A stretch of 64,000 nucleotides of DNA from Pseudonocardia alaniniphila (GTDB lineage: Bacteria > Actinomycetota > Actinomycetes > Mycobacteriales > Pseudonocardiaceae). Both the position numbers and the translations under genes were made by a program. The stretch is taken from contig NZ_JAKXMK010000033.1 in assembly GCF_022524485.1 (NCBI RefSeq), positions 1 through 64,000 on the forward strand, written 5' to 3'. Every line of letters begins with the position of its first letter. The first letter of the stretch is position 1. Positions 4,688 to 48,093 of the stretch are shown in pieces. Below the pieces are notes generated by a model. It saw only the letters and a program-made list of their open reading frames with translations. It was not told where the DNA came from and ran no database searches.

Positions 4688-4708
4688 CCGCACCTGACGG
4701 GAGTACGG

Positions 4709-9141: not shown

Positions 9142-9169
9142 GGTGAATCTCCTAGCAGTACTCGAGGGA

Positions 9170-9745: not shown

Positions 9746-9799
9746 CCCACCAGAGTAGTAGCCCGCGACGATGCGGGCACCGCGCCGGGAAGTCGTCGG

Positions 9800-10264
9800 T
9801 CAGCCCGGTGTGACCTGGAACTCCGCCGTGCCGTCCCCGGCACGCATGACCTCGATCACGGCGGTGCCGACGGTGGCGCTCGAGCCGGGGGCGATCGTCA
9901 CCGTGGCCCCGTCGGCCGTGAACGTGACACCGGCGTCCTCGACCGCCTCGACTGCGATGACCGGGCTCGAGCCGCAGGAGAACGTGGTGTGCCCGTTCAC
10001 GGTGCTCGAGCGCGAGCTCGTGCCCGAGCTGCTGATCGACGTGCCGCCGGGCGTCACCCTCAGGCGACAGAACCCCGAGGACGCCCGCGGCACGACCGAC
10101 GGCGAGGCGCTCTGTGGGGACGGCGCTGCCTGGCCCGACGCGCCCGGGCGCGACGTGGGCTCACCGGCGATGCTCGTGGTGCAACCCGCAACGACGAGCA
10201 TCGGCAGCGTGACGGCGACCAGCACGGAGCCGAGCACCCGCTGGCGCGTACGGAGGAGCTTCAC
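9800..10264 (-). CDS. Putative lipoprotein
   Basis: 154 residues beginning at GTG 10264. A basic start (KLLRTRQR) and a hydrophobic core lead to a lipobox VVAGC, followed by TTSIAGEPT, a signature common in Pseudonocardiales surface lipoproteins. A Ser/Pro/Ala-rich linker then precedes a small domain with two cysteines (GFCRLR and TFSCGS) that may form a disulfide. It should be anchored on the outer face of the membrane. It lies 54 nt upstream of yceD on the same strand and is divergent from the response regulator gene. The function is unknown. Confidence 0.75.
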   Translation of the reverse strand: MKLLRTRQRVLGSVLVAVTLPMLVVAGCTTSIAGEPTSRPGASGQAAPSPQSASPSVVPRASSGFCRLRVTPGGTSISSSGTSSRSSTVNGHTTFSCGSSPVIAVEAVEDAGVTFTADGATVTIAPGSSATVGTAVIEVMRAGDGTAEFQVTPG

Positions 10265-10377
10265 GGTCCGGATCGTGCCGTTGATCCGGGTTGCTTGGCG
10301 AGCCCTGTGCGACGACCGGCCGTGCGCATGCCGCGACCAGGCTTTTCCGCTCGGTAATCGTCCGGCAGGCTGATCAC

Positions 10378-11046
10378 GTGCGTGTACTTGTGGTCGAGGA
10401 CGACGACGGGGTCGCCGACGCGGTGCTCGAAGCGCTGGCGGCGCACGGGCACACCGCGGTCCGGGCGGCCCGCGCAGCCGAGGTCTGGGGCAACGCCCAC
10501 GACGCGGACGTCGTCCTGCTCGATCTCGGCCTCCCCGACGCCGACGGGCTCGACGTGCTGCGCAGGCTGCGGCGCATCACCTCCACGCCGGTGCTCGTGC
10601 TCACCGCCCGCGGCACCGAGCGGGACGTGGTGCGGGGGCTGCGGCTGGGCGCCGACGACTACGTGGTGAAGCCGGTGCGGTTGCGCGAGCTGCTGGCGCG
10701 CATGGAGGCGGTGGCGCGCAGGGCCCGTGCGGGGCGCGCCGACGACGACGCCCCGGCGGACGTCGTGGAGATCGAGGACCTGCACATCGACCTGGGCGCC
10801 CGGCGGACCACCGTCGGTGGGAACGAGATCACCCTGACCGCGAAGGAGTTCGAGATCCTCGCCGCGCTCGCCCGCAGGCCGGGAGCCGCCGTCAGTCGTC
10901 AGCAACTGCTCGACGAGGTCTGGGGTGACGCCTACCTGGCGGTTTCGCGCTCGCTCGACGTGCACCTCGCGGCGCTGCGGGCCAAGCTCGGGCGCCCCGG
11001 CCTGCTGACGACGATCCGCGGGTTCGGCTTCCGGCTCGGCGGCTGA
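10378..11046 (+). CDS. Two-component response regulator, OmpR/PhoB type
   Basis: 222 residues from GTG 10378. The receiver domain occupies residues 1-115, with the acidic pocket (VVEDDD), the phospho-acceptor D49 (LLDLGLPD), the conserved Thr/Ala region (VLTARG) and K98 in YVVKPV. A winged-helix DNA-binding domain follows (ITLTAKEFEILAALARRPG ... VDEVWG-like helix ... TIRGFGFRL). The kinase gene follows after 9 nt. The pair and the adjacent TAXI lipoprotein resemble TctD/TctE-type systems, in which a solute-binding protein feeds the sensor. Confidence 0.95.
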   Translation: MRVLVVEDDDGVADAVLEALAAHGHTAVRAARAAEVWGNAHDADVVLLDLGLPDADGLDVLRRLRRITSTPVLVLTARGTERDVVRGLRLGADDYVVKPVRLRELLARMEAVARRARAGRADDDAPADVVEIEDLHIDLGARRTTVGGNEITLTAKEFEILAALARRPGAAVSRQQLLDEVWGDAYLAVSRSLDVHLAALRAKLGRPGLLTTIRGFGFRLGG

Positions 11047-16821: not shown

Positions 16822-16828
16822 TCTCCGC

Positions 16829-16872
16829 GAGATCCGGGTTTCGGCCCCGCGAAGGTCCGAAACCCCGATCTC
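16829..16872. terminator. Bidirectional terminator between the SARP and giant genes
   Basis: A 16-bp stem with one mismatch (arms 16829-16844 and 16857-16872, loop of 12) fills the 63-bp gap between two convergent genes. It begins 8 nt after the SARP stop and ends 12 nt before the giant gene's stop. Confidence 0.8.
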
Positions 16873-16884
16873 GTCGATCATGAC

Positions 16885-19800
16885 TCACGCAGGGCCCCGG
16901 CGCGCCGGCAGCGGGCCGGCCTCTAGCTCGGCGACGGCGTCGAGCCCGGCGAGCACGACCTCACGCGTGGCCGACGTCTCCGTGTTGGTCGGGGCGCCGA
17001 GCAGCACCACGAGCTCCTCGACGGCCGCCCGGTACCGGGGTGCGTCGATGCCCGAGGGATCGGCCAGCTCCGCGAGCAGCCGCCGCGTGTCCTGCGTGAG
17101 GGAGTAGACGGCCTCGGGAGCGCGCCCGGGGGCGCCCCAGTCGATCTCACGGTGTACGAGGTGGCGGCGGTGCAGCACGGCGAGCCGGCCCATGACGCCG
17201 TGTTCCCGCAGCTGCTGCGTCCGGGCCAGCCACGCGGCCGGCACGGGGCGGTCGGCGGTGGCCAGCGCGAGCAGGGTGCCGCGCAACGAGTCCGCGGGGA
17301 CGTGGGGGCCCCGGCCCAGCGGACCGGCTTCCAGCTCCTGAACGGCAGCGAGGGCCTGGATCAGCTCGGGGGTCCTCGGTGAGCCGGGCAGGAGGTTGAC
17401 GTTCTGCGCGAGCAGCGGAGCGAGTCGCTCGGCAGCGGCGCGGTAGTCGGGGTCTGCGATCCGGGCGGGCTCCGCGAGGTCGGCCAGCAGCAACCGGGTC
17501 ACGGCGGGCACGGAGTAGAGCTTGCGACCCGCGGCACCACGACGGATGCGCAGCAGCCCCCAATCGGCCAGCACGTGCAGCCGGTGGCGCATCTGCGGCA
17601 CGGGGAGCATGCCGGTCGCCTCGGTCAGCTCCTCTGCGCCGATCCCATCGGGCGCGGCGGCGACCGCCTCGATCGTCGCCCACACCGAGTCGCCCGGCCT
17701 GTGCAGCCGCTGCGCCGAAAGCGGCCCGCCCGGAAGCGCGCGGATCACGTCGAGGACGTCCGCGAGCTCCCGCGTCCCACGCTGTTCCGGCCGCAGCCCC
17801 GCCGAGCGGGCCAGCAGCTCGGTCAGGTGCGCTGCCGCTACCCGGTAGCCCGGGTCGGTGATCGCCTCGGGATCGTCCAGGTCCTGCAGGAGCCGGCGGG
17901 TGTGCGCAGGCAGCCCGTACCGCCTGAGTGCCGGTCCCCGCGTCCCGCCCGACAGGACGACGACCAGGTCCCACTCGGTGAGCGTGAAGACCCGCCCCCG
18001 CACAGCCGTCTCGGCGGTGCCGGTGGCCGCCGCGACCTCCGCGACCGTCGCCCCGCCGGGCGCATCCAGGGCGTCGAGCGTGGCGCGTAGCGACTCCGGC
18101 CGGGGGCCGAGGCGCTGATCGCGCAGTGGGCTGTAGGGCAGTGCGCGGACCGCTTCCACGGCCTCGGTGACCTTCTGCCGCGACCCCGGGCCGAGTTTCG
18201 CCGCCGGGGTGTTCAGCAGCTCGGCAAGCGCCCGCAACCGAGCCTTGCTCGCCTCCGCGACGAAGGAGGACGGATCGTCCAACGCGGCCAGCAGCCGCCG
18301 CACCGGCTCGGGCAACCGGTACACCCGGCTGCCCGAGCGCGCACCCCGGCCCGCGCCCGACACCCGCTCCACCAGGTCCCACCCCAGCAGGAGCCGCAGC
18401 CGCTGCCGCATCGGCACCATGCCAAGACCCGGCGGCAGGGCGGCCAGCTCCTCTGCCGTGATGCCGGCCTCGCCCGCCGCCCCGATCGCGTCGAGCGTGC
18501 CCCGGTAGGACGTCATCGGCGCAGGGCCGCGCGAGGGCAGCGGGCTCGCGGCGAGAACGCGGATCGCGCCGACCAGCGCCACGAACTCGCTCGCCTGCGC
18601 CGTTCCGGGCTTCAACGGCGCCGGTGAGCCCAGCCGGAGGGCCAGCTCCTCCAGCGCGGCCACGTAGTCGGGTTCCCGCAGCGCCTCCCGACCGTCCACA
18701 TCAGACAGCAGGCGGCGGGTGCGCTCGGGCACCGAGTAGGCGAACCGCGTGGTCGTGTGGTGCCGCGCACCGGCAGGGAGCCGCTCCAGCAGCCCCGCCG
18801 CGTAGAGCGTCGCCAGGCGCTGGCCCAGCACGGTGCTCACGACCCCGGTGACGGCCGCCGCGATCTCGCCGACCGTCATGACGCCGGTCCGGTCCATCAC
18901 GTCGAGCATGTGCCGCACCGAGTTCTCCTGCGTCACCGGTGACGCCGGCAACGGGCTCCCGGGCAGGTTGCGTATCGCCGTGAGGACCGCGTCGGTCCGC
19001 TGCCTCCACCCGTCCCTGCCGCGGTCGATCGGCCTGTCGAGCCGCGCGGCCAGCTCGTCGAGCAGCACCAGGTACCGCGGGTAGGGCTGGAGCGAACGGC
19101 CGTCGACGTCGCGGAGCAATGCACGCGTGTGGCCCGGCAGGCTGTAGCGGTACTCGCGGGACCGGATCCCCGAGGTCGGGTCGATCCATCGATCGACCAG
19201 ACCCCATCGGTGCAGCGCGTGGAGCCTGGTGACGAGGGCCCATGGCCTCCCGGACGTGGCCGCCGCGAGCTGGGCGAGCGTGCCGCCGGCACCGGCGGCG
19301 ATCACGTCGAGCAACTGCCTCGTGCTCACCCTCGGCGCCGCCGGCAACGCACTCTCCGGCAGGTCCCGCACGGCCTGGAGCGCGTCCTCGATCCTCCGGG
19401 TCGCCACCACGCCGACCTGGAGGCTCGCGGGCCGGTCGAACCATCCGGCGAGCGCGTCGAGGGCCGCCCGGTGGGGCCGGTCGAGCACGCTGACCCGGTG
19501 GTCGAGGTCGTGCAGGAGCCGGCGCGTGTGCTCCGGCATCCGGTAGAGCGAGGTCCCGTCGGAGGCGTGCTGCATCTCCAGCAACCCCCAATCGGCGAAC
19601 CGCGCCAGGCGCAGCTTGACCGCACCGGCGTGCTGCCGCGCGAGATCGTCGCCTCCGACGAACCCGCCCGCGGCGGCGACGGCGTCCAGGGTGCCCCGCA
19701 GTGAGGTCTCGCGGGTCACCACCGGGATGCCCGCGGAATCGATCTCGCCGCGGTCGAGCAGCCGGGCGATCGAGTCGATCAGCGCGTCCATCGGGAACCG

Positions 19801-22800
19801 GTCACGGCCCGGGTTGCGCCGCAGCAGCAGGGCGGCACGGTGCAGCGCTTCCCGGTCGTGGGGATCCGCCACGGTGCCCGGGTCACGCAGGGCCGCGAGG
19901 AAGTCCCTCCCGAGCTCCGTCAGCTCGTAGGTGAACTTCGTCCGGCTGGGACTCGCCGACTCCGGGTCGGGCGCGTACCCCCACCCCGGCTCGGCCAGGA
20001 TCAGGAATCCGCCGCCCGTGATGCTCTCGTCCAACCGCTGGACCCGCCGGGTGACCGTCACCATCCGCGGCCCGATCCGGTGCACCGTCGCTCCGCGGAC
20101 GAGATCCGCGCTCGTGCCGAGAACGCGGGCGATCTCGCTGCTCCCCGACCCGGGAACCGCCCCGATCGCGAGCAGCAGATCCAGGTAGCTCACCGGTGGG
20201 GGCTCGTACAGCTCGTGCACCCGCCCATCGGTCTCCAACGGACTTTCGGGGGTCTCCCGCAACCGCGCCACCGACGTGGCCAGCTCTGCCAGCGAGGGCC
20301 TCGACAGCCCTTCGCTCATGAGGAGCTCCGCCAGATCCAGCAGTGCCTCTCGATAGGCGGGCTCGACGATCTCCGCGGGGTCGGTCAGCGCGTCCATCAG
20401 CGCGAGCACCGACGTGCGCAGCAGGTAGCTGTCCCCACCTCCCGCCCTGTGCGTGATCTGGACCAGTCCCAGGGTGGTGAGCCGGCGCGCCGTGTGACGC
20501 ACGCTGCCCACCGGCAGATCGAGCATCCGCGCGAGGCCGACCGTGTTGACGCCGGGAGAACGGCGGACGGCCAGCAGCACGGCCCCGTAGCTGGTCGGCC
20601 CGGGCTCCCACAACCCGCCACGGTCCGCGTCCGGGTGCAGCGGGCTGCCCTCGATCGTCCGCAGCCGGGTCACCACCGCGCCGAGCCGGTCCGCCGCCCC
20701 GTCCGCCGCGGAAGGCACCTGGCGCAGCAGGCCGAGCAGGGCGTCCAGCTCCCGCCGGTAGTCCTGCTCCTCGATCTCGTCCCGGTAGGCGAGATCGCCG
20801 AGCACCCTGCGGACGGGGACGGCGAGCAGGTGCCGGACCCCGTCCTGCACGTCGAGCTGGACCAGGCCCGCCGCCCGCAACACGGAGATCGCCGCGGTCA
20901 CGTCCGACGCGGCACCGCCCGGCAGCGCTGACGACAGCTCTCCCGCGCCGACCCCGGCCGGGGTGGTCCCCACCGTGTGCAGCAGGTCCAGGTAGGTGGG
21001 CGCCCCGGCGCCCGCCTGAACCCCCAGCTCCGGCAGGGCGGTGAGGAGCGTCAGCAGCCGGGCCATCTGATCAGCGGTGCTCTCCTGCCACAGCGCCGGG
21101 CGCGTGGAGAGCACCGCGGCGGTCTCGTCCAGCAGAGCGCGCACCGGCCCGTCCGCAAGGCCGTCCCGGGCGGCCACACGTTCGAGCAGCGCGATCACGC
21201 GGTCCACGGGACCGTAGGTGTCACCGCTCCGGCCTGCCCGCAGCAGCCCCGACGCCACCAGCCGGTCGAGCACCATCCGGGCCTGCTCGGCCGACCCCGG
21301 CAGCACCGTCCGCCGCAGCAGCGCCGATGCCGTGCCCGGGCCGGCCGCCACCTGTGACAGCAGGGTGCGCAGTGCCGGCAGCCGGGTGGCCTCGGCGCGA
21401 TCGAGCCGTTCCGCCGCAGCGATCTCGTCGCGCCGCACCCTCGCGATCGTCACCCGCGCGACGAGCACCGCGTGCTGCACGGCCGCCGCGGACCGGTCGG
21501 GACCGCCGTCGAGGCCGGCAGCGAGATGGGCGTCGAGATCGGCGTCGAGGTCCGGGCTCAGCAGCCGGCCACGGATCAGCCGGTCGATCTCGGCGCGGAC
21601 GTGCCGCAATGTCACGGTCCATCGCCTGCCGTGCACGTCCACCACGCGGACGGCGAGCAGCTCGGCGCGCAGCCGCTCCAGCCCCATCCCCTCCAGTTCG
21701 GACCGCAGCGGCCCCCAGTCCGCGACGATCGTCCCGCCCTCGCGCGACGCCGGCTGCTCCCCCAGCCACAGCGCGAACCTCAGGGCCAGCCACCGTTGCT
21801 CACCCGGCGAGAGCGGGCCGGTCGTGACCCCGTAGCCCACTCGCGGTCGGACCAGGGCGAGCAGGGCGGTCGCCGCCGGCAGCGGCATCGCCTGCGCCGC
21901 GTCCTCGGTGGCCCGCTCCAGGCGTGCCCGCTCCCGGTCGGCCAGCTGCTGTCGCCACGGCTCCGGCAGCAGCACCAGGCGCGCGAGCACCTCCGCGTCG
22001 ACGAAGACCGCTGCCCGCCCCGGCTCCGCGGGGTCCGGTGCCACGAACTCGACCACGGCGAACCGTTGCGGCAGAGCGGCGTTCCACCCCGGCACCGCGT
22101 ACAGCCGCGGCGCGAACTCCGCCCACGCCCCGCCCGGATCCGCCAGTCGGTACGCCCGGTGCTCCCGCCCGACCTCGCGCAGCGAGTCCCGCATCCCGTC
22201 GAGCACATGCAGGACCTGCGCGTACTCGGTGTCGTCCAGCCGGGTGGGCACGCCGGTGTTCCGGACGACGGCGACCGCGCCGCCCGGGGGCGGGCCGCGC
22301 AGCCGTCCCGCCTCGACGAGCCACCGCTGCAGCGCGACCAGCCGGTCTGCAACCGGTCCCGGGTCGTGCAGGGTGAGCAGCCGGGCGTCGGCGAGCGTCT
22401 CCGTGACGACGTCGGCCAGGCCGGCGACCGCTCCCGGCGGGAGGGCGAGCTCGCTATGCCGGACGATCAGCCGCTCGACCCGGGCGAGCCCCCACTGCGC
22501 CGCGGCCGGCGCGGGCCCACCGCGCCAGCGGGCGGGAACCTCACCCTGCTCGCGGCTGGTACCGAGCACGAGGTCGAAGGCATCGTCGATCAACTCGACG
22601 AGCTCGGCCTGCGCCGGCCCGTCCCCGAGCCGACCGGACAACGGTGCGAGCACCGCCAGGAGCTGGTCGAACAGCCGCCGGTGCTCCGACCGGCGCAGAT
22701 CCACTGCCATGGGTAACGGCGCCGGGAGCCGGCCTGCCGCGCTCACGAGCGAGTCGATGAAGCCGGACGGGAGATCGTCGGCGGTGGTGGCCTGCTCCGC

Positions 22801-43800: not shown

Positions 43801-46800
43801 GCCGGTCCCCGCCGTGCAGCTCGCCGTGCCGGTCGACGTCCGCGGCTTCCCGCCCGCGACCGCGCCGTCCCACGCGCTCGAACCGGTGTGGACCGTGCCC
43901 GAGCAATTCACACCCGACGGGCAGACGAGGCTCGCGCTCGACGAGGACGTGGACGTGGGTCCGCTGGTCGGCTGACCCGCCACCGGGCGCCCGGTCGCGG
44001 GGTCGACCACCACGAAGTCGGGGGCCGACGAACCGGACGAGCTGGTCTGCGCGTCGCAGCCGCCACCCGTGACGATGCAGTCCGCACTCGCCGACGATCC
44101 GCGGGAGTGGGGCGACACCGCAGTGTCCCGCGCACTCGTCGACGAGCTCGCGGTTCCCCCGCAGTCACCCGCACCGCCGGAGCACTGAACGGAGGCGCCC
44201 GCGTTCGAGACGCTCACCGGACCCGTCACCGCACCCGCGGCGCCGACCCCGGCAGCGGGCGCCCGGTCGCTCACGGTGGTGTCCGACTGCGCCGAGCACC
44301 CTGCGCCGGCGCCGCGTGCGGTGCAGTTCGACGAGCCCGTGCTGTCGCGCAGCCCGGTGACGTCCCCCGACGCCGAACCGGACGTCGTGCTCGCGGCCGC
44401 GCCCCGGCAGTCCGCACCGGCGCACTCGACCTGCGCACCGGCCCGGCTCGATGCACTCAGCTCCCGAGCCGCCGGCGCAACGGCGCCGACCGTGTCGAAC
44501 CCCGTCCTGGCGGAGCCCGGGGCTGCGCCGTCACTCACATCCGAGACGGACTCGGCGCTGCACGCACCGGCGGACGCCTCGCACGTCGACGAGCCCTTCG
44601 TCTCCCGCACCGGCGCTGCGCCACCCGCGGTCGCGACCGCGCCGGTGACGCGCCCCGTCGTCGCCGTGGTGCCCTTGCCGGAGCACGCCGTGGAGTCCCC
44701 GCAGTCCACCCGCGTGCCCGACGAGCTGGATGCCGTGGCCACGCCATCGGTCAGCACCGCCGGCCGCACAGCGCCGTCGGCGTCCGAGCCGACCCATCGG
44801 TCGTCATACTCCTCGATCGGGTTGTCGATCTCGGTGCTGCTGTTCGCCCCGCACGCCCCACCGGAGACATCGCAGCCGGCCGACCCGGTGCTCGTGCGCG
44901 CCGCACCGTCGCGCAGCCCACTCGCCGTCCCGCCGGTCCTGCTCGCGCCCGTACCGGTGCACCCGGCAGCGCCGTCGCAGTCCACGTCGGCGGTGGCCGC
45001 GCTGCTCCCGCTGACGTCGGCGGTGCCGTCGGCGCGCGACTCGCTGTGCGTGCGGCAACCCCCGCCGGTGGCGGTGCAGTTCGCGGAGGCGTTCGTGGCG
45101 GCCTCCGGCGTGCCGGTCGGCACCGGATCCGCGGCCGCACCCGCAGCCGCGCTCGCGTCACGAGGCCCGGCCTTGCGTCCGGCGTCCGTGCTGCTGGTCG
45201 AACGGCCTGTGCAGGCGGCATCGCAGGTGACCTCGGCACCCGCCACGACCGCGTCACCACCCGAGCGCGCTCCCCGGTGCCCGACGTCCGCGCCGTCCCC
45301 GAGGTCCACCGTGCTCGACGTGCCGCAGCCACTCGCCGACTCGCAGTGCGCCGACCCGCTCCCCTGACCCCGCGACTCACCGCCGGTGGCAACCGGCTCG
45401 GTGCTGACGGCCCGATTCGCACCGGCCCCCCGCCCAGCGGTGGCCGGCTGCGCCTCGTCCCGATCGGACCGGGACCCGGTGCTGCTGCTGTCACACACGC
45501 CGCCGTCGGTGCGGCACTGCGCTTGCGCGCCGGAGGAGTACGCGTAACCGGTCACGTCGCACCGGCCGGTGCACGACGCCGAGGCCGACGTCTTCCGCTC
45601 CGCTCCACCCACGGACTGAGCGTCCATGCCGCTGGGACCCGACGACTCGCTGCGGCACGACCCACCACCCGTGGCGCACGCAGACTCTCCGCCTGCCGAG
45701 CTCGCCCGGCTGCTCAGGCCACACCCGCTCGCATCCCCCGAGCACCTCGCCGACGCCGTGGCCACCTCACCGTCGGCATCGCGATGGGAAACGCTGCTAC
45801 CACAACCCTGATCGGCACCGGACAACGTGCACGACGCCGAGCCCTTCGACTCCCCCGACGAGGTCTGCACCCCACACCCGGACGACACCCCGGCCAACGC
45901 CACACACCGGTCGGAGTCCTTCTGCCCGTCCGCGCCCCGGCTCACCGAACCGCACGCAACGAACACCCCGCTCGACCCGCACCCGGCCGCCGACCCCTCA
46001 CCACGACTCCGGGACGGAACCGCATCCGACACCTCGTTGTCGGTGGCGGCCATCAACTCATCGGTGGCCTCGTACACCTCATCGCGCTGCGCCTCGACCT
46101 TCGCGACGTTCTGCGCGTGCGCCTTCTTCGTGACCGTGCCCGCGGCGACCTTCTTCTCCTCCGCCGCCAGCTGCTTCTCCCGCGCGGTCAACTCGCGGTG
46201 GCCGTCCACGACCTCATCGACCAGCTCAGCCCGCTCCGGCGACAGCTCCGCGCGATCCGCCGCGACCTGCTTCGCCAACTGCTGGTGCTTCTTCTCGTCC
46301 TTCGCATACGCGGCCTTGGTCACCTCACCCGAAGCGACCTTCTTCTTCTCCGCCGCCAACGCCGCCTTGCTCTGATCAACCTTGATCCGGCCCTCGAGCA
46401 CCCGCTCGGTCCGCTCCGCGGAATCGTCGTACTCCTGCCACTGCCCGAACCGGCCCGTCGAATACCGGTCGCCGGCCTCGTCCGAGGGAGGACCACGAGA
46501 CCCCGTCGCCGACAACGTCCGCGACCGCAACGACGCCGCCTCCGCGAGCGCGCCCTCCCGAACCGCCTGGATTGCACGCGCGGCCCGGACGGCGACCGCC
46601 TCATCCGCCGCTGCGCCGGCCTTCTTCTTACCGGCCTTCTCCGCTGTCTTCAGAGCGGCCTTTCCGTCGGCCTGGTCGAGCGCCTTCTCGGCAATCTTCA
46701 CGAGAGCAGCGGTACGACCCGCCTTGTCAGCGGCGGCGCCGGGCACCGTCCCCGCGGTCTCGGCCAGGGCTTTGCGAACCGCAGGTGACGCCTTGTCGAG

Positions 46801-48093
46801 AGCGGCGCGGACGGCCTTCTCGTCGGCAACACCGGATTCCTTGCCGGCAATCTTCGCGAGGTCCTTCGTGGCGGCACGTGCCTTGTCGGCGGCAGTAACG
46901 GGGGTCTTCTCGGTGGCCTTCTTCCCGACGGCCTTCGTGCCGGCGACCGTTGCCAATGCCGCGTCGAGCTCGGCGCCGGCCGTCCTCGTGGCCTGCTTCG
47001 CGGCAACGCCCGTGACGGCGGCGCGCACCTTGTCCGCGATCTTCCGCGTTTCTGCCGCGCCGAGCTTCGTCGCGCGCTGCTCGCCTGCCTTTTCGCCGAG
47101 CGTTGTCAGCGCCTGGCGGGCGATCCGCATGCCGGCCGAATCACCGGTGGTCGCGCGCGCCTTTGCTGCGGCGGAATCCTTGCCGGCCGCGGTGGTCTTC
47201 TTCAGCTTCTCGCGAGTCGCGACAACTGTGGTGTCCCGCCGATCGCTCACGTTCTGCGCCTCGGTGTTCTTCCCACCGGGCGTCGCTCCCGAGCGCGCGG
47301 AGGTCTTCTTCTTCGATTCGGCCTTCTCGGAGTCGGCCTTCTTCGCGGCAGACGTCGTCCGCTTCGCGGGCTCGCCCGACTTCTCGTCATACGACGGGGC
47401 GCTCATCGTCGCCGCGGCCGGCCGGCTGCCGCCCGTGGCACTCGGCTTCTCCGACTTGTCGCTGCGCTTCCCCGACTCGCGCTTCGCAGCCGCCTTCTTA
47501 TCAGCCGACGTCTTCTTCTCCGACGCCGCCTTCTTCTCGGAGGCCTTCTCCGACGCCGCCTTGTTCGCCGACGCCTTGCTCCCGGACGCTACCTTCTCGG
47601 TCGTCTTCTTCTCCGAGCTCGCCTTCTCGGAGGTGGCCTTCTTCTCGCTCGCCGCCTTGGAAGTGGTCTTCTTCTCCGAGGTCTTCGTCTCGGTAACCGC
47701 CTTCTTCCCGGCGGTCGTCTTCTTCTCAGTCGTCGCCTTCTTCTCGGTCGCCGACTTGGTGCCGGTCTTCTTCTCGGTGCTCTTCTTCTCGGTGCTCTTC
47801 TTCTCCGATGCACCGGAATCCGAGCCACCGCTCTTTCCACCTGCGGGCCTGCTGCTACCTCCCTTCAGCACGCCCTGCCCCGCAACCACCGGGACCGCCA
47901 CCGCAGCCGACGCGGGCGAGGCAGCCAGGAAGGCCGCCCCCACCCACAGCACGACGACAGCGCCCGCCAGCCCGAGGACCCAACGCATCACCCACAGCAA
48001 CCGCTCCAGCGGCGACAGTCGCAGCCGCACGACGGCGTCCGAGCGCACGGCGAGGCCAGCAGCCTCACCATCGCGCACAGACACCGGACTCAT
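16885..48093 (-). CDS. Giant multidomain protein, about 10,402 residues
   Basis: One uninterrupted frame of 31.2 kb. The ATG at 48093-48091 is chosen because GGAG lies 8 nt upstream and a membrane segment follows directly; the frame stays open 66 codons further. Residue layout: 38-58 membrane/signal helix ending in an ASA site; about 73-280 Lys/Ser/Thr/Glu low complexity; about 560-690 coiled coil; about 700-2370 Cys-pair repeats; 2370-2750 beta-rich; 2750-3560 helical with hydrophobic stretches; 3567-3625 J-like; 3765-3800 helix-turn-helix; about 4080-4700 SecA-like motor; about 5115-5235 methyltransferase-like; 5333-6177 and 6356-7197 duplicated phosphatase/HExxH module; about 7200-7560 kinase-like; about 8090-8310 trypsin-like protease; 9031-10402 winged-helix-like repeats. 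The mix of many enzyme types in one chain recalls multi-effector or polymorphic-toxin giants, but the overall function is unknown and I assign none. Confidence 0.9.
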   Translation of the reverse strand: MSPVSVRDGEAAGLAVRSDAVVRLRLSPLERLLWVMRWVLGLAGAVVVLWVGAAFLAASPASAAVAVPVVAGQGVLKGGSSRPAGGKSGGSDSGASEKKSTEKKSTEKKTGTKSATEKKATTEKKTTAGKKAVTETKTSEKKTTSKAASEKKATSEKASSEKKTTEKVASGSKASANKAASEKASEKKAASEKKTSADKKAAAKRESGKRSDKSEKPSATGGSRPAAATMSAPSYDEKSGEPAKRTTSAAKKADSEKAESKKKTSARSGATPGGKNTEAQNVSDRRDTTVVATREKLKKTTAAGKDSAAAKARATTGDSAGMRIARQALTTLGEKAGEQRATKLGAAETRKIADKVRAAVTGVAAKQATRTAGAELDAALATVAGTKAVGKKATEKTPVTAADKARAATKDLAKIAGKESGVADEKAVRAALDKASPAVRKALAETAGTVPGAAADKAGRTAALVKIAEKALDQADGKAALKTAEKAGKKKAGAAADEAVAVRAARAIQAVREGALAEAASLRSRTLSATGSRGPPSDEAGDRYSTGRFGQWQEYDDSAERTERVLEGRIKVDQSKAALAAEKKKVASGEVTKAAYAKDEKKHQQLAKQVAADRAELSPERAELVDEVVDGHRELTAREKQLAAEEKKVAAGTVTKKAHAQNVAKVEAQRDEVYEATDELMAATDNEVSDAVPSRSRGEGSAAGCGSSGVFVACGSVSRGADGQKDSDRCVALAGVSSGCGVQTSSGESKGSASCTLSGADQGCGSSVSHRDADGEVATASARCSGDASGCGLSSRASSAGGESACATGGGSCRSESSGPSGMDAQSVGGAERKTSASASCTGRCDVTGYAYSSGAQAQCRTDGGVCDSSSTGSRSDRDEAQPATAGRGAGANRAVSTEPVATGGESRGQGSGSAHCESASGCGTSSTVDLGDGADVGHRGARSGGDAVVAGAEVTCDAACTGRSTSSTDAGRKAGPRDASAAAGAAADPVPTGTPEAATNASANCTATGGGCRTHSESRADGTADVSGSSAATADVDCDGAAGCTGTGASRTGGTASGLRDGAARTSTGSAGCDVSGGACGANSSTEIDNPIEEYDDRWVGSDADGAVRPAVLTDGVATASSSSGTRVDCGDSTACSGKGTTATTGRVTGAVATAGGAAPVRETKGSSTCEASAGACSAESVSDVSDGAAPGSARTGFDTVGAVAPAARELSASSRAGAQVECAGADCRGAAASTTSGSASGDVTGLRDSTGSSNCTARGAGAGCSAQSDTTVSDRAPAAGVGAAGAVTGPVSVSNAGASVQCSGGAGDCGGTASSSTSARDTAVSPHSRGSSASADCIVTGGGCDAQTSSSGSSAPDFVVVDPATGRPVAGQPTSGPTSTSSSSASLVCPSGVNCSGTVHTGSSAWDGAVAGGKPRTSTGTASCTAGTGGCDVQSVSNASTGSGAALALSGQPQANGPTSREAAAPVTAERSQVNTARLTAGPSAASAAGAALSCEGQEACTGRVSSAATATDPSVSPDPRGSYSEGSCEGVSGGVCQAVTNSGASSGPDANVIAPLVQARSTSNASISSGTTGSADEQAPADDQPVQVPGQDQPATPPAPTAPGSSANSGGPTVQGASSWTMASATLDCDGNAADCRSTAGSSASGSDGPSTLAGAGGARGPPEGVSTTTARCAGGPSACQAQTSSSAGSGQVVADIVAEQQNSAAEQAGQQATEARRQAELAAQVAAEPGATTEQKKAATDAATVAEAAQKAAVDAAELAAKPVENAPATLSDSSAAALCAGAGCTATTTGRTSGSPGVSSTEATCTSAASGCAVSSDATAGVVRNAGVAQGGKTNPGYSGSGQTSSMLTCPEAGCTGRMTGTADVSAGPQGRQSRSSADGETGCDGTTACQAQISAGTSATVGTDRDPAARFATTSASVGATCDNGTATGCATSTSSRTEAVGAMNVRALATGSCATAGACQSATGGFAARDVAEVTASCAGTGCTTHTQGNARYAGGNAVHTASSRTDCTAGPNGMCGSSSRVGATETGAEVSASCAGTEGSACTHRIAARSSAQSSTGGHQASADAGCGSAGGAGSGWCATSAAAQTSDEFAMAAAACQGSAGSGCRYSYRAHSSDSAGGAAHATATGFGRGTFGAGQVLTTAAAAAGPGFAQASASCLGTAGTTCSHSYSAAVSASASAAGSSASASARGSGGGGMGGGGVAVSARAVAGPGFAQASASCTGTPGTSCSHSYSATASASDSWKGPHGSHSEAQAYAHGSGGGGMGGGGVGVSAQAVAGPGFAQASASCSGAANCTTSFSAEAEMHARAEDPERGGYWEAWGHAKCVGGGSSGGTCGARAEAVPGPNGGGRGWCTGTGSCVEHSGGNSFEKYVQPGSGQPVDKNGKPIPIEELGPDDRAVQIERDADGNVVWKIKPKGEKVRGGTCPAPCKNGVDESVEGGERVGYDPADGFSGSMPTDPGSDKRDSATGSDGVRLARDVQGNGGGWVRGSGSVTNGRTGETVRYTRRATSDNPLNTFRLSNPAGSPFTSTCNGGCVYTGAKLPGKAGVDHLTVEGAWGEITGRDGNGNPARITFTGAGHFTSAEGDTFFGVGGTGTADRVEILTRNASGLGGYIKVTNGYGTIRTAEGASLACWGCEGAEYMPTRAGMGGLATCSISNAGDSCTATGAPWKGQSDVQRASIDIHAKGAVEFAQFLRNADGSGGGAVAFTSGDGFARGTDAYGDWIQTAGEGGRMALLYSEADGYNRGQSCVGGKGGTFEGGCSGSDPVERRLKWVEPSQDVTAALGMRGGPPQRPPGFIGPVASGGSTSLVDRARAAFRFTAGQGHVRWMAETGNHQLAPVAEAFERAKQGGITHAEARELARKVDGLPAKTMERAGRTGDALEVLMKVNGTQRPSTEDVERQLAEDPRLVASLLGRPYEAGWKPSDQDRTTAKNKLLDQQAASARAIGDLNALQPREDALQRRQDAYERAVTNYNLGLGGNRAALEAERKEIERLSGDLEDDQRPIMGRLDASQEVLRTYDIAAAGLANDPNYAGNMRVAQANLEAVQGVVDALPELKTDADVAAARKLVAFSEAARLGYDASIEAPRLPSSRLHDMALPSSGAPDLALAMRSAAGYSYFKKLVETSNSPFVNKDGSDYTPDQISDLAATWVYGDPADLTEVARLAGTPRTADEAVQLLAGKESEAGHDEAMDNYFRQINQAGLIKDLGSTLSDSEMDKLRDVVNEEDPKSVGGFFRFMLEGAQLLQSEAVRKYNREFGVGHESFGRNLGRGAVTLGMGILTLPGTVIGGGGVEIANKIKYEGVLGTAASLTPGTAAFAPFLSERDPTRSAAPPQRTGESDVEYYTRLHPLTGGMLVTPVTNSWNRWFGDGDASRDYHDRPVESLMEDGLPVLIVAGGVAAGLRGGAVGAAARGAAARATAANLPRTAATVAQRSALRTAAVRFENRASRLETARKIASVPVHLASAPYYAVGLPVRAGSAAVRAVTAPAARVAQAGSTAAGMRALAGAIANRPTAPLWLSATTGLRRVAGGLGRSAESARMIARHGLVGSIRMPGAYKNLGVSRAATPQAIEAAHTVRIAKASRGKVDDPVLATRRAGLDESLQIVRDHRARVTAKVAAKDAKKAARATARTNGPGRLAPPATIVAAATADAGRPGPAAVTEAAGQHGTAAAAVGTAGQRGAAGVADAPGAAGRGAPAAPGVANPAAQHGPATPETGTTAGGAPSAAAGRPAPSPTTDGAAGGASLAERIDATLAANGDKPMTAAALARQLGVKKTDIHRASESGSGRESASGSATPRTEIVRDGNGTAWVQRHAGEPPSARGSATGDGPGALTQGSRAISGERSGAGPGPSRAGAGTSRASAGGGSPAAARSSGSGGAPGESPRPAPSGPGRPSNDQALPTGSTASGGRPRTPVGDGGGPTVVRGPDPEPLRSPDEAGAVDTASSVGARKHDGKVRSGDPPVRAADDTTPRSEPWVRGKEKTSSARPTGAEAPDPRGLRTTLADATKELRAAKAARTEILARLEDELARTTDHGRRRELLDARPRYDRPVTEAQARVDAAKHELTKERSTRAYRPEISAIKTLWSDEASIQALRERVEAGERLNRVESFALIAEQIRLTHGKRLHDVQLAGAIAMDGGGRLSTRIRFALTRGGTARGTVVEMLTGEGKTFTGMLPAMKRGFENRVAGADGRGVHVMTSNTQLAGDTVAAYQGIASELGLTVRLRSRGTPGARSAYEADITVGSATDLIFDFLEDQRRPAGERVQRGHAFALVDEADMVMLDWGASPHRLAEAVQASARRAELVWARDLARGLERGEYSVRTGRPVTISSRQASRIEQRTGQVLSDQQRIDLANAKRAEGMQPGWDYKIADRVRIEVLDNPNGRAKNGQRWSQGLHEALEAKHKLPIGRPQQTIAQATVVQYLRNYRNAAGMTGTAWEARGLFRNLFRMDVVRIEPNLPSRLNVRQRQVYASERALHDALATEVVMRKDNPAPELLIMRTPAQAEAFAAILRERGVTVQVLNALDERIVFEDAVVAAAGRPYAVTVATNIIGRGTDIILGGRGKGGPVDLAAQRVVTEAGGLRVTTASAFESFRATRQGFGRAGRQGSPGSAGEVLSLDDPILARYADWRALARLEKTYGASTSPLPARAVNRLVDAAVARAEKAGARRLTGVVRGKVGPETEVVQAVDSTTPALALSRSATAIDTAATPRDGLVDATIGRIEGLRQELAAARSAVARFGGAEATSRLLDECSQLCRVETAVSQALQDYRDLVEPAVEPRAAEGAQAASAEFDRIAAQQLGVTTGVVTLARDQAAAGDYAGAAETLSRLSRGAEAVDQLAGRRWGGAVWAANSADQAVYLLERLMAIQEGATDTSPTLSHTATEVSRLSRRLAALDGGVGHSYEARELARTLARLDGLVPTLPPGAAADAVAALVDDAARHQLDRLQQANPPAEILADLYGLAAENAVGAAEIRTLLQAGHLPGPGGPARAIGEFAGRHHLDWSRSAKRALRAALRHVAPELPRPAPSAQAASAPAPAGTAAVSGDGAGTATATGPEPVAGGRRGAAEPVRSTEASAPRPRPGDTASGVSPPAVVGPGPVGPGGQRLYLGAVADPVPGSVTVDRRALPGVDVIADAARLPFRSSTFAEVHAVNPSGFQPVSPETARVLGPGGRLVVTASPQNPAMRLSEADVLAAGFVRVSEGPAVAEHRRSLDHPASVTTIYESRGGPRQPGSGQAPGPARPSQAGGSGSGPPAPSAGPAQVRTPGPSAAGSPRRVAGNKIRHRSGATASGTSPPAVGRFSHIRRGVRDAAARTRAAAESAGRSVRAGWGELTSGLRFVWSPPAWVLEQAAAQPKRVTVAVEHRLYPTWLQEWLGPVGEFVYQLLHVKLVRSDKLAPVEGRRLTLRERISRIREIVARAIYNRAGTGGAPHVYLPPVVWKLPLPGWADGLLDVSIKVSAGNIGVLTVLDQAEMSQKTTKKTRVLGAFPVVRVSLVIAVGRSFRIEPFLLHFDVPGRALEQTARAPWMVGFHPVRRVVNWALNHDLGLWTWNVFDFISQSQFGLGVGPASTVLPNWLEYRGSLQSVKINRRNGQVVSINMIKDPGKGLRRVVMAMLRTGGRLLPRPLREHLAGTPARFAVRGERHQVRHRQRILGRIRAELEIQRALYVEVAAELARLRELQTGGRVAVTVPWYSSMFTVAGVPLDPRDLLAARIARLEALRDEIAAVIRKNRQLEKSVVESLTALGVSIGDPARVEGAPTQRALAVGSGALGAVTEPGRPDVASGDAWRGTTVSGRVVAMVADQVAGSQAAVPASVVAVEAGITAARSQSPTAPGPQVGRAVYDAAAAATTPAPDVLDPDSTSYLTAVATRSDTGTEVVLVGVGDSRAYLVRSDGTAELLTTDDNMATAQSAEGPAPSRPTSVSTRWLGESPAPQPGTTTVSVTGPGLLILVTDGVSDLFPTPADLAAVIDVSAGLSNPAQAARQLTAAATALGGRDDKTAVVVPLNGQRPVPAPDGGPVAIGGLSESERLDLLRLLPTVAGHLRPLERVVAGMPRGPPGSPAVMVLDVDAVRASVLAGSAGVLDRLVAFGWRDPAVAVAAAGVVVMTAGMAAEVAGHLAAGRLQPEWFERLIDHEMRHHLSGRIHGGHDEDAAAVVAGLLDARRAEAGARALWRAGIVRADLARAATRRGLGWVVAGLGRVLRWAGWPMRRLAELRDRRAAGAMRSLVQGASNRLAGASRLRWDAVQVATATSLTGELNRLGGMLDAVRDGSGSVPARALAGRVDAAVAAVEALVLTAPARGPPATAGAVSRFGVRAAVGSPAFMTAAARAVAARMWARAGSVGRSVRAWWDGLLSGLRFVWSPPAWVLEQAAAQPKRLKVGVEHRLYPTWVQEWLGPAGELVYQLLHIKLVRKDSLAPVEGRRLPLRERISRIREIVARSIYNRAATTGGQWIWASAVVPVPLPGLADAFLDVSIKMITGNYGALSVLDQAEPLTKAAAKKIRVLGAFPVGRVGLLIALRGWFRIEPFILHFDVPGRALEQTVEAPRVIGFHPMRRLKYWALNHDLSPWTWKPFDFLSQTQFGVGVGPADPVLPNWMEYRGSLQKVVITRRDGRVHELDMIKGTGRKVRAGLIRVWRVAGRLLPRPVREYVERAPAWFAARGERHQISHRRRILGRYRAELEIQRSLYVDVAAELARLRELQAGGRVPVTGPWYSAMFTVAGAPLDPRDLLAARIARLEALHDEIAAVIRKNRQSEKSVVESLTGLGASDVVALAAEPPSRRAVTQGSGALGAVSESGSPGRVNGDAWRGATSPGRMVAMVADEVAGWGAAVPASVVAVEAGITAARAQQATAPGLQVGRAVYAAAAGATTPAPDVLDADSTSYLAAVATRTGTGTEVVLVGVGDSRAYLVRPDGTAELLTTDDNMASAQTAEGSAPWRPASVSTHWLGESPAPQPRTATVAVTGEALLVLVTDGVSDLFATPADLAAAIDAPAALRDPGLGARQLADAATARGGHDDKTAVVVPLNVARSGAPDGGPVAIGGLTEGERRDLLRLLPTVADHLRPLERVVAGMPRGPPDAPPVLVLDAASLPQSSAQSSAGVLERLVAFGWRDPSMPAAAPGVVVMTEAMATEVADHLAAGRLRPEWFARLVDHEVRHHLSGEAHAGHDADAAAIVAELLGARRTVAAGPVHLVGIGTSGATAGRFVDTTDGAAGRAVREAVRTLDERGAVHPARQSLLEVAGPRGLWVTEGLDFALVDGLNAELAREPGSDGIAVVYVLDRERSRVLADTEMFGHLRGLDEELRVALEEHVLLRLRHGDPANVGTEAVTDVPGIPLRRLEGASFVRRLTGETVRGGRPKVLLLRDAGGALMAAMHWAHDPGVLLRAVAGAELSRRVGVPTAPSWPAMASEDLHDETGSTVVEAGDVLVMRGFLDGTAVELDAPGSGAQRDQVAGQFVLAGLLQDADLMRATEDDRLRTADGLVWSFDFDQSLPIGRDARPVERGLRIGSRPEIYGRLTPADVLAQLEHVGRLREWLLAGVPGGVLHRMVAARLSRVQEMVRAGRLPEALVQDLERAARSAAARYPGDPRPPGAHLPVFADQALALADAWAHQAGPPGQRELRLASDGQLRALVEASLPVQVHGWRAGLWGQGRWEISLRPQDARGAGDPWTPDLHAVDPRRVLSALRPLLPRHPAPAAPEAAPDVAEPGVVSATEVAAQLRRTGVAVEVHASGLTWVDGIPTMVGAVAGPPDDGLAERAVAAAGELTPLGRAVIWVRSPVTAEQLGQVLQRVRDAHPGAFDHIRLFTADHTVEWDPHGPPGRSGASALPAVIAPGATFDALPLWARAAAVGAGVAAVLGGPRAIGRALLATLRRLAGLLASAPTRGPPPRHRGGGPALISHRDLPDDEREIVVQVIDGMAWTDAVDPAGLDRLARFEPGEAAASGARGIRGADGFGEAVRGASGPADLVVYAGWDGWLYTDARTLAALRSGVLGPDALRALMRHELAELANGRLPQHERLPHAQLPPLPDLTPLAPVVGAHLPARPVAFRSVVDVHGRTALVAPELGAPPAALSSMTVVHADKIISRSRSSGVVVRVAGGTADVLTNRHVVDGAVRVRVELGRQAWSGSVLPAPAPGRIADALAGIDAEAAAMPREELLGSVADLDLALVRISTDEHPQVTLVPVVPGTTSVEGSPVTLVGLPHQSFPVDGPDAVWDNRTAEPRPVVAGGIAAPGRWSATPGADRWDLVIAGSPWVALGSSGGPVLAGQGVHERLVGVAHSITISVLGQDGTQARAALVVGAPAVRAYLAATWSPDDPAPTRRHADVVPVRWGDSPALAAAAERSLDRARVALDRAGALTGDRPREIAELVEQAREAASFAGFLTRRHPEPFAAGISDAEARAVTATDRLWTLLAARAEQATTADDLPSGFIDSLVSAAGRLPAPLPMAVDLRRSEHRRLFDQLLAVLAPLSGRLGDGPAQAELVELIDDAFDLVLGTSREQGEVPARWRGGPAPAAAQWGLARVERLIVRHSELALPPGAVAGLADVVTETLADARLLTLHDPGPVADRLVALQRWLVEAGRLRGPPPGGAVAVVRNTGVPTRLDDTEYAQVLHVLDGMRDSLREVGREHRAYRLADPGGAWAEFAPRLYAVPGWNAALPQRFAVVEFVAPDPAEPGRAAVFVDAEVLARLVLLPEPWRQQLADRERARLERATEDAAQAMPLPAATALLALVRPRVGYGVTTGPLSPGEQRWLALRFALWLGEQPASREGGTIVADWGPLRSELEGMGLERLRAELLAVRVVDVHGRRWTVTLRHVRAEIDRLIRGRLLSPDLDADLDAHLAAGLDGGPDRSAAAVQHAVLVARVTIARVRRDEIAAAERLDRAEATRLPALRTLLSQVAAGPGTASALLRRTVLPGSAEQARMVLDRLVASGLLRAGRSGDTYGPVDRVIALLERVAARDGLADGPVRALLDETAAVLSTRPALWQESTADQMARLLTLLTALPELGVQAGAGAPTYLDLLHTVGTTPAGVGAGELSSALPGGAASDVTAAISVLRAAGLVQLDVQDGVRHLLAVPVRRVLGDLAYRDEIEEQDYRRELDALLGLLRQVPSAADGAADRLGAVVTRLRTIEGSPLHPDADRGGLWEPGPTSYGAVLLAVRRSPGVNTVGLARMLDLPVGSVRHTARRLTTLGLVQITHRAGGGDSYLLRTSVLALMDALTDPAEIVEPAYREALLDLAELLMSEGLSRPSLAELATSVARLRETPESPLETDGRVHELYEPPPVSYLDLLLAIGAVPGSGSSEIARVLGTSADLVRGATVHRIGPRMVTVTRRVQRLDESITGGGFLILAEPGWGYAPDPESASPSRTKFTYELTELGRDFLAALRDPGTVADPHDREALHRAALLLRRNPGRDRFPMDALIDSIARLLDRGEIDSAGIPVVTRETSLRGTLDAVAAAGGFVGGDDLARQHAGAVKLRLARFADWGLLEMQHASDGTSLYRMPEHTRRLLHDLDHRVSVLDRPHRAALDALAGWFDRPASLQVGVVATRRIEDALQAVRDLPESALPAAPRVSTRQLLDVIAAGAGGTLAQLAAATSGRPWALVTRLHALHRWGLVDRWIDPTSGIRSREYRYSLPGHTRALLRDVDGRSLQPYPRYLVLLDELAARLDRPIDRGRDGWRQRTDAVLTAIRNLPGSPLPASPVTQENSVRHMLDVMDRTGVMTVGEIAAAVTGVVSTVLGQRLATLYAAGLLERLPAGARHHTTTRFAYSVPERTRRLLSDVDGREALREPDYVAALEELALRLGSPAPLKPGTAQASEFVALVGAIRVLAASPLPSRGPAPMTSYRGTLDAIGAAGEAGITAEELAALPPGLGMVPMRQRLRLLLGWDLVERVSGAGRGARSGSRVYRLPEPVRRLLAALDDPSSFVAEASKARLRALAELLNTPAAKLGPGSRQKVTEAVEAVRALPYSPLRDQRLGPRPESLRATLDALDAPGGATVAEVAAATGTAETAVRGRVFTLTEWDLVVVLSGGTRGPALRRYGLPAHTRRLLQDLDDPEAITDPGYRVAAAHLTELLARSAGLRPEQRGTRELADVLDVIRALPGGPLSAQRLHRPGDSVWATIEAVAAAPDGIGAEELTEATGMLPVPQMRHRLHVLADWGLLRIRRGAAGRKLYSVPAVTRLLLADLAEPARIADPDYRAAAERLAPLLAQNVNLLPGSPRTPELIQALAAVQELEAGPLGRGPHVPADSLRGTLLALATADRPVPAAWLARTQQLREHGVMGRLAVLHRRHLVHREIDWGAPGRAPEAVYSLTQDTRRLLAELADPSGIDAPRYRAAVEELVVLLGAPTNTETSATREVVLAGLDAVAELEAGPLPARRGPA
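16888..21003 (-). repeat. C-terminal array of about ten winged-helix-like repeats
   Basis: Residues 9031-10402 of the giant protein break into about ten units averaging 135-137 residues. The last seven (from residue 9463) are clearest. Each starts like SLRGTLDAVAAAGG and has a helix-turn-helix-like pattern ending in a WGLLE or WDLVE strand. A YR-x-P-x-x-TRRLL-x-DLD stretch and a PxYRAALxxLAxxL helix follow, and each unit ends near AVRxLPxSPLPA. The fold assignment as MarR/ArsR-like winged helices is inferred from the pattern. Sequence divergence between units is high, so they are old repeats. Confidence 0.75.
23200..23870 (-). other. Trypsin-like serine protease domain within the giant protein
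   Basis: An S1/HtrA-like triad is present in the correct order: H8123 in LTNRHVVDGA, D8180 in DLALVRI and S8275 in GSSGGPVL. The spacings (57 and 95 residues) suit a compact trypsin-like fold. No PDZ domain follows. The domain edges are approximate. Confidence 0.8.
26503..32097 (-). repeat. Tandem duplication of an 840-residue enzymatic module
   Basis: Copy 1 covers residues 5333-6177 (29566-32097) and copy 2 covers 6356-7197 (26503-29028), with a 179-residue linker between. Each copy has an unknown domain of about 480 residues starting GLRFVWSPPAWVLEQ, then a PP2C-like phosphatase, then a short domain with HExxH. The period is 1,021-1,023 residues throughout. Some DNA is nearly identical between copies, for example 27793-27870 against 30862-30939, offset 3,069 nt. 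This points to recent duplication or gene conversion. Confidence 0.88.
33990..35860 (-). other. SecA-like ATPase motor domain within the giant protein
   Basis: Residues about 4080-4700 carry the SecA motif set in order: Walker A MLTGEGKT (4173-4180), Walker B LVDEADMVMLD (from 4282), MTGTA (4442), TNIIGRGTDIILGG (from 4558) and GRAGRQGSPG (from 4611). The gap of about 160 residues between Walker B and MTGTA is the size of the preprotein-crosslinking insertion of SecA. The C-terminal scaffold is shortened. The motifs indicate an active ATPase. Confidence 0.85.
40985..45995 (-). repeat. Cys-pair, Ser/Gly-rich repeat region of the giant protein
   Basis: Residues about 700-2370 consist of short units with a cysteine pair spaced about 4-8 residues apart, such as SCTGTPGTSCSHSYS or CAGADCRGAAASTTSG, separated by Ser/Thr/Gly/Ala-rich spacers. 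Towards the end (41200-41640) three longer units share GPGFAQASASC and GSGGGGMGGGGV. An Ala/Glu-rich helix of about 80 residues interrupts the array near 42750-43010. The paired cysteines suggest many local disulfides in an extracytoplasmic stalk, which is an inference. Confidence 0.8.
47260..47870 (-). repeat. Lys/Ser/Thr/Glu low-complexity tract of the giant protein
   Basis: Directly after the N-terminal membrane segment the protein is built of short SEKK, TEKK and AAEKK-type motifs. In the DNA this appears as recurring TTCTTCTCGG-type words on the + strand, with close direct repeats at 47763-47812. The stretch is strongly basic and likely unstructured, comparable to cell-wall-spanning or polyanion-binding tails. 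The neighbouring protein at 52540-54852 ends in a similar tail. Confidence 0.75.

Follow-up and report, generated by a model that had tools for sequence, protein, structure and literature searches.

Giant bacterial genes seem to be best documented in the uncultured Omnitrophota, where tests are hard. West-Roberts et al. are said to have described, in 2023, giants of Omnitrophota and others, most of them with divergent SecA DEAD domains, and some proteins of Actinobacteria above 30,000 residues. Published sources give single genes of up to 85,800 codons (PMC12057145), peptide support for the giant frame of Velamenicoccus, with 39,678 residues (PMC10066038), and, in one survey of metagenome-assembled genomes, 19 proteins above 40,000 residues, all from Omnitrophota and Oscillospiraceae (PMC13104272). 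We have analyzed 64,000 nucleotides of Pseudonocardia alaniniphila (the window: positions 1 to 64,000 of the 105,542-bp contig NZ_JAKXMK010000033.1), the minus strand of which carries one giant gene for a protein with a SecA-like motor. Giant SecA-bearing proteins are known already; what is apparently new is the family, so far undescribed in Pseudonocardia, to which this giant belongs, with its chassis, its stalk of paired cysteines and its nearly cysteine-free payload. No account of Pseudonocardia giant genes was found in the literature examined (preprints and most subscription journals lay outside its scope), and the passage of PMC10232511 that holds both 'giant gene' and Pseudonocardia means polyketide synthase genes. 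An earlier, sequence-only reading of the window knew no named family with such a domain order; this holds in the same literature, but SecA-bearing giants are known elsewhere and the genus contains many relatives. We tentatively regard the product as a delivery protein associated with the envelope and made as one chain, a polymorphic giant with multiple effectors that would be exported and have its payload pushed out by its own SecA-like domain.

The closest known kind is the Omnitrophota-type giant, which we take to be marked by a very long single frame with a divergent SecA domain, as in the window gene, and by many transmembrane segments, whereas the window protein has 3 hydrophobic stretches (Kyte-Doolittle hydropathy, KD, at least 1.7) and its relatives up to 177. 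Compared by description only, the Pseudonocardia giants differ in their alignable chassis, paired-cysteine stalk and nearly cysteine-free, shuffled payload, and in belonging to a cultured genus. The gross plan, huge size with a divergent SecA domain, is like that of the Omnitrophota giants, and the 177 hydrophobic segments, in a frame of 58,239 codons, would likewise suit a predation or adhesion coat, that is, an extracellular giant that binds and degrades the surfaces of other cells. Passages in PMC10066038 and PMC12057145 propose such giants as weapons, coats or adhesins. We nevertheless consider a coat unlikely: the window protein has few hydrophobic stretches, and no carbohydrate-binding, glycosidase or adhesion family is among the Pfam matches listed for it (here and below the Pfam scan covers 9,990 of its 10,468 residues) or for three relatives with about 90,700 payload residues, where one of the scans lists 25 of 26 families.

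CdiA, a protein of Gram-negative bacteria, delivers its toxin on contact. It forms a rod outside the cell while the toxin half is held back by secretion arrest (PMC9086364), and this arrangement is an analogy for the model proposed below. A CdiA-like protein as such was rejected, with VENN occurring 0 times in the window protein and once among 21 giants (in T17) and with no FHA-type family present (0 Pfam families at E 0.1, residues 1-3000). Giant actinobacterial proteins that combine several toxin domains have been reported (Zhang et al. 2012, PMC3482391). Like polymorphic toxin systems, the giant family has a conserved N-terminus and exchangeable C-terminal modules; unlike them it has a SecA-like motor, a payload of thousands of residues and a different set of modules. 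Nor is an adjacent immunity gene found among the 52 neighbour genes compared, the downstream neighbour being a convergent BTAD/NB-ARC regulator, and no toxin domain is recognised at the C-terminus in the window, where winged helices stand, although one relative ends in an HNH nuclease domain. With the SecA translocase the motor shares the Walker A and B, TGT and arginine-finger residues, but it is embedded in a giant chain, and its match extends only to about where the helical scaffold begins, with the rest of SecA unrecognised. Because each of these systems fails a tested feature, we file the window giant among the giant SecA-bearing proteins and not within SecA, CdiA or polymorphic toxin systems.

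The longest frame extends from 16885 to 48291 (10,468 codons), and residues are numbered throughout from its first GTG. Its translation has no internal stop, a frame of this length has a chance of about 10^-70 given the base composition, and in all 20 bins of 500 codons the GC at codon position 3 (GC3) reaches 0.83 or more. The single intact gene of about 10,400 residues that had been proposed is thereby confirmed, with 10,402 codons from the ATG at 48093. Its start, too, had seemed plausible: GGAG lies 8 nucleotides upstream, and in genomes G004 and G010 and in a second giant of the window genome no ATG or GTG of the frame precedes the methionine homologous to residue 67. The start is well supported from sequence comparison but not proven, because the G010 alignment reaches somewhat further upstream. 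An artefact or decaying gene, be it an assembly fusion or a frame held open by base composition, is extremely improbable. High GC does yield long shadow frames, one on the opposite strand having 2,151 codons, but the coding bias is uniform, dN (nonsynonymous divergence) is 0.18 against a dS (synonymous divergence) of 0.40 between two internal payload copies, and motor-bearing giant frames occur in 16 of the 62 genomes of the genus. Coding bias and the many relatives led us to reject a chance frame or a fusion, and the position of the window inside a much longer contig likewise speaks against an assembly accident.

In the genus-wide search with the motor alignment, these 16 genomes yielded 47 frames of at least 3,000 codons with a SecA-like motor inside (listed rows counted); the stalk alignment matches 23 of the 62. 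The longest frame found in the family is that of 58,239 codons, in P. eucalypti, with 114 of its 116 bins above the coding-bias line of GC3 0.78 and the other two at 0.76 and 0.77. Titin, with under 40,000 residues, is shorter. P. eucalypti has at least 16 giant frames, of 4,101 to 58,239 codons (two cut at contig ends), which occupy about 923 kb of a genome of about 9.6 Mb, or about 9-10%; 13 of the 16 are among the sequences compared. As DSM 45351 it is a culture-collection strain, so that expression, location and function of the longest frame can be tested. The second giant of the window genome is a frame of 8,477 codons (G000:C39:285623-311053, L090-L092) with the same N-terminus and stalk, 61% identical to the window giant over part of the stalk. 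Wider searches scored only 2-3 candidates per genome. At family level the chassis was found in 8 of 297 genomes (its own, six of the same genus and one of another genus); at phylum and order level the only matching genome was the window's own (1 of 396 and 1 of 397, respectively), weak evidence with so few candidates scored, and the order-level output names few genomes, so that the number of giant-bearing members of the genus within that draw cannot be stated. A plasmid or viral origin was rejected, the helical and hydrophobic chassis region having no match in plasmids or viral contigs.

Fourteen giant frames, including those of 58,239 and 40,947 codons, are crowded on one P. eucalypti contig (JACHMT010000003.1, 1-1053233). 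Short frames of 1,745-2,818 codons (in G292, G010, G021, G004, G009 and G011, the last being P. eucalypti) are matched by the stalk model over no more than its initial ~200 positions, and by sequence small stalk-like proteins without payload may exist. The giant-rich genomes G000, G004, G009, G010 and G011 have raised contamination estimates of 7-8%, perhaps inflated by extra SecA-like copies, but genomes without a stalk match are also raised (G001, 7; G740, 9).

The distribution of cysteines is the most telling observation, and one that the sequence-only reading did not contain. In the window protein 90 cysteines at residues 771-2836 form 45 pairs, with spacings of 3-12 within pairs and 15-102 between them; after residue 2840 there are 2 cysteines in 7,628 residues where 69 are expected (Poisson P about 2e-27). 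The tails of 20 giants hold 107 in 269,084 residues (0.40 per 1000) against 2,446 expected, the baseline being 131 nearby non-giant genes, which a GC rule selected in these stretches (463 cysteines in 50,942 residues, 9.09 per 1000). Tail starts of the 20 giants were set by a cysteine-density rule that favours low counts near the border, that of the window by the last stalk pair. Of the 107 tail cysteines, 91 have a further cysteine no more than 100 residues away, mostly as pairs. In the second giant of the window genome the last pair stands at 3553/3557, with none after it. All other residues in the tails are within 0.77-1.44 of the baseline. Avoidance of near-stop codons was rejected as a cause of the loss, since Trp rises (1.44) and the reduction of Tyr is slight (0.81). 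MFS matches in P. eucalypti serve as a control of the same fold: of the best 30 among 153, each of them stand-alone, 30 contain cysteine (7.6 per 1000), against 0 of the three that are listed inside giants. According to PMC9974433, which cites earlier work, about 60% of the proteins exported by Actinobacteria, among them A. oris and C. diphtheriae, hold even numbers of cysteines. On our reading, stalk and tail would share an oxidising path on which an unpaired tail cysteine is harmful. A partition this strict is a strong and simple clue to the destination of a chain, and one that can be checked in other giant protein families.

The order of the chassis parts recurs across the giants: signal segment, linker, helical-looking segment, cysteine-rich stalk, beta-looking domain, helical domain, hydrophobic region, motor and post-motor region (judged, where the parts are recognisable, from window sub-regions against 19 other giants). 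Among 14 motor-bearing giants, pairs of overlapping slices occur in the same order rather than another at 14,653 to 252 in the chassis and 39,474 to 20,063 in the payload, counts that are descriptive only. The N-terminal membrane segment noted earlier is a hydrophobic stretch at residues 105-123 (KD 2.42) followed by an AxA-type site, and residues 73-150 are 55-66% identical in three relatives (T0, T1 and T18). The stalk is recognised in 17 of 20 giants including that of the window; T5, T6 and T11 are the others. A structural model of the helical and hydrophobic region is poor overall (mean predicted local distance difference test score, pLDDT, 64.3; predicted template modelling score 0.39). 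The segment at residues 3630-3720 may resemble a J-domain.

The secretion-type motor of the sequence-only reading is matched by Pfam SecA_DEAD at 2.6e-44, by NCBIfam SecA at 7e-83 and, in a profile search, by solved SecA structures at 1.4e-128. Key residues of Walker A, Walker B, TGT and the arginine finger are invariant in 11 of 11 motors aligned. The preprotein cross-linking domain PF01043 matches only at positions 70-110 of 110 (E 4.7e-5). In a SecA tree the 14 giant motors separate from three SecA1 rows; with only these three outside sequences, the tree shows that separation and no more. A motor is recognised in 14 of the 20 giants compared, including that of the window; T11, where none is recognised, has a frame truncated at the end of its contig.

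In the C-terminal half, recurring modules are shuffled into a mosaic whose order varies and whose content differs from giant to giant. They were found by a module scan against giants cut into pieces. The protease, phosphatases, kinase-like region and DNA-binding-like repeats that had been read from the sequence all find support. Pfam Trypsin_2 matches the protease at 4.6e-10, and of 9 copies found, the 7 that were aligned all keep the catalytic H, D and S. The two PP2C-like phosphatases are weak in Pfam and NCBIfam, but such domains number 15 copies in 11 of 21 giants (14 aligned). Pfam shows no kinase; nevertheless the predicted fold of that module (pLDDT 88.8) matches kinases in a fold comparison, two kinase aspartates are kept in all 14 copies aligned of 15 found, and 37 of 40 matches in the genus lie inside frames of at least 3,000 codons. 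In fold only (9% identity, no sequence-level match), the model would resemble the atypical kinases H. pylori CtkA, PI4KII-alpha and actin-fragmin kinase. The DNA-binding-like part consists of eleven winged-helix-like repeats. The methyltransferase-like region fared worse: its best NCBIfam match has E 0.02, and in the module scan it occurs in none of the 20 other giants. The HExxxH module has 60 copies in 14 giants (15 aligned), with nothing better than E 0.028 in Pfam; it is not called an HExxH zincin, as the conserved spacing is HExxxH with a further His and HD. Profile searches of the PDB with the HExxxH and kinase-fold modules gave nothing better than E 0.19. Module M1 has 4 copies in 3 giants, and M4 27 copies in 12 (14 aligned). 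A megasynthase for nonribosomal peptides or polyketides was rejected: no condensation, adenylation, ketosynthase or carrier domain is listed at E 0.1.

The in-chain serine protease with its triad, and aspartyl protease matches in one relative, raise the question of a polyprotein cut into separate proteins by its own trypsin-like or other proteases, for which an LPS[T/S]G-like loop in the helical domain could serve as cut site. The loop lies about 880 residues before the motor, where the structural model has pLDDT under 50. Among 23 chassis sequences it reads LPSTG in 12, LPSSG in 4, other LPSxG in 2, MPSTG in 1 and LPS[ST] followed by M or L in 3; one has none, so that some form is kept at the homologous position in 22 while the G is lost in 3. 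These 23 comprise 17 of 21 giants with a match to the domain (that of T2 only at E 0.2) and 6 extra loci (of 10 tried, 7 matched and two were the same gene). With the G lost in 3 and the motif absent in 1, we think a polyprotein distinctly improbable. The window genome has 3 sortase matches, and by its sequence the loop, which lies between stalk and hydrophobic region, might be cut in the manner of a sortase site. The lost G argues against a sortase signal, as does the first hydrophobic segment being about 170 residues away, and the signal is kept as a lead; because of the lost G the loop may instead be structural.

Export of the payload, its propulsion by the chain's own motor and its delivery are what we infer from these features. 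In the proposed model the signal segment would send the N-terminal half out of the cell, where the paired stalk cysteines would form disulphides and make a rigid stalk, and the hydrophobic region after the stalk would hold the chain at the membrane. The SecA-like ATPase would then drive, in cis, the passage of the following 5,000 or more residues. The passing tail would have to stay unfolded and free of wrong disulphides, and the proposed reason for its lack of cysteine is that the payload must avoid them in transit. Phosphatases, kinase, proteases and DNA-binding-like repeats would act outside the producer, most likely in or on another cell, and like polymorphic effectors they would differ from strain to strain. 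Where a relative shows no recognisable motor, export would have to fall to the SecA of the host. The multi-effector or surface giant suggested by the sequence-only reading is still the best reading, if an inferred one. A bolder form is quite doubtful: a secretion machine from one gene, with a disulphide stalk associated with the wall, a middle held at the membrane and a motor that spools the cysteine-free payload of effectors out of the producer and into a neighbour. If it were true, such giants would take up about 9-10% of the P. eucalypti genome; and should the motor serve its own chain, a whole secretion system would reside in one polypeptide.

Several observations weigh against export and delivery. 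Common though the motor is, not every giant shows one, and this weakens a motor-dependent model: none was found in T3, T6, T12, T15 and T17 (4,101-17,592 codons), either at E 1 or in a profile search, or in the second giant of the window genome by profile search, despite the same N-terminus and stalk, and T5 and T6 have no recognisable stalk. The NCBIfam SecA match ends at position 617 of 814, which we take to be about the start of the helical scaffold, and the scaffold, two-helix finger and wing are not recognised at sequence level. The payload of the 58,239-codon frame carries transporter modules (MFS, TauE, cation efflux), a poor fit with injected toxins. No immunity-like partner was found beside the giants: among the 52 neighbour genes compared, four response regulators form one recurring group and a single further pair recurs. 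A crude choice of eight proteins that look exported, from the same stretches, gives 7.7 cysteines per 1000; as these are not cysteine-poor, export alone does not predict depletion. Net charge after the second hydrophobic segment is positive in 6 of 7 rows, which favours a cytosolic side, and it is also positive before the first in 5 of 7; because both flanks are positive, the charges do not settle the topology.

Some of these points suit a membrane-anchored signalling hub, whose stalk would be an external sensor or adhesin, while motor, kinase, phosphatases and winged helices would work in the producer's cytosol. Kinase fold, PP2C-like and winged-helix modules are of cytosolic type and would also fit a cytosolic C-terminal half, the charge after the second hydrophobic segment agrees, and in six relatives no motor that could export the tail is recognised. 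Against this stand the changing payload and the near-total absence of cysteine, which neither the soluble genes nearby (9.47 per 1000) nor the membrane ones (6.22 per 1000) show. We judge such a hub somewhat unlikely. The parts of the window giant are collected in Table 1.

Table 1. Parts of the giant gene and adjoining hairpin, from the start of the gene onwards (window positions)
Feature	Positions	Strand	Evidence
Complete giant gene, 10,402 codons from ATG (residue 67 of longest frame)	16885..48093	minus	frame scan, translation, start comparison, coding bias
Conserved N-terminal segment, signal-peptide-like hydrophobic stretch (residues 67-132)	47896..48093	minus	alignment, hydropathy
Lys/Ser/Glu-rich low-complexity linker and Ala-rich stretch (133-590)	46522..47895	minus	sequence
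Conserved segment, coiled-coil-looking by guess from sequence (590-760)	46012..46524	minus	comparison of giants
Cys-rich stalk (760-2450)	40942..46014	minus	cysteine positions
Gly-rich domain with last cysteine pairs, beta-looking by guess from sequence (2450-2880)	39652..40944	minus	comparison of giants
Helical chassis domain (2880-3330)	38302..39654	minus	alignment; model helical but poor overall
LPSSG, window form of the conserved LPS[T/S]G-like loop (3174-3178)	38758..38772	minus	motif comparison in relatives
Region with two weak hydrophobic segments (3330-3640)	37372..38304	minus	alignment, charge analysis
J-domain-like segment, no visible HPD motif (3630-3720)	37132..37404	minus	comparison of giants
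Short helix-turn-helix-like segment (3820-3860)	36712..36834	minus	HTH_IclR, E 0.024, below cut-off
SecA-like motor (4060-4770): GEGKT at 4242, DEAD at 4350, GRAGRQG at 4677	33982..36114	minus	profile searches, motif alignment
Post-motor region holding C4828 and C4832, the single late Cys pair	32962..33984	minus	alignment, cysteine positions
Methyltransferase-like segment, unproven	32362..32784	minus	NCBIfam; module scan matched only itself
Module M1, copy 1	31147..32031	minus	module scan
PP2C-like phosphatase, copy 1	30043..30723	minus	module scan, alignment
HExxxH module, copy 1 (conserved H, E, H, H, HD)	29578..29994	minus	module scan, alignment
Module M1, copy 2	28078..28962	minus	module scan
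PP2C-like phosphatase, copy 2	26977..27657	minus	NCBIfam, module scan, alignment
HExxxH module, copy 2	26515..26931	minus	module scan, alignment
Kinase-fold module	25312..26055	minus	alignment, genus-wide search, predicted fold
Module M4	23932..24375	minus	module scan
Trypsin-like serine protease, catalytic triad present	23107..23868	minus	Pfam Trypsin_2, alignment
Modules M7 and M5	21847..23079	minus	module scan
Eleven winged-helix-like repeats (9024-10468)	16888..21222	minus	Pfam, module scan
GC-rich hairpin between stop codon and convergent neighbour, possible terminator without U-run	16822..16884	minus	folding energy, terminator scan

The surroundings of the giant are ordinary. Between 251 and 16821 lie genes for KdpA, CorA, a decarboxylase, a response regulator and histidine kinase, an NRAMP-like transporter and the BTAD/NB-ARC regulator that converges on the giant; the upstream neighbour is a divergent gene with no family assigned. 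The strong terminator of the sequence-only reading holds as far as the hairpin after the stop codon is concerned (-39.2 kcal/mol over 77 nucleotides), but a pattern scan that requires a T-run gave 0 terminators. Scans for promoters gave 0 sites and those for tRNA and Rfam families 0 matches in the window. At 53859-54221, inside a predicted gene of no assigned family (52924-54852, plus strand), there is a 192-bp tandem duplication with 90% match.

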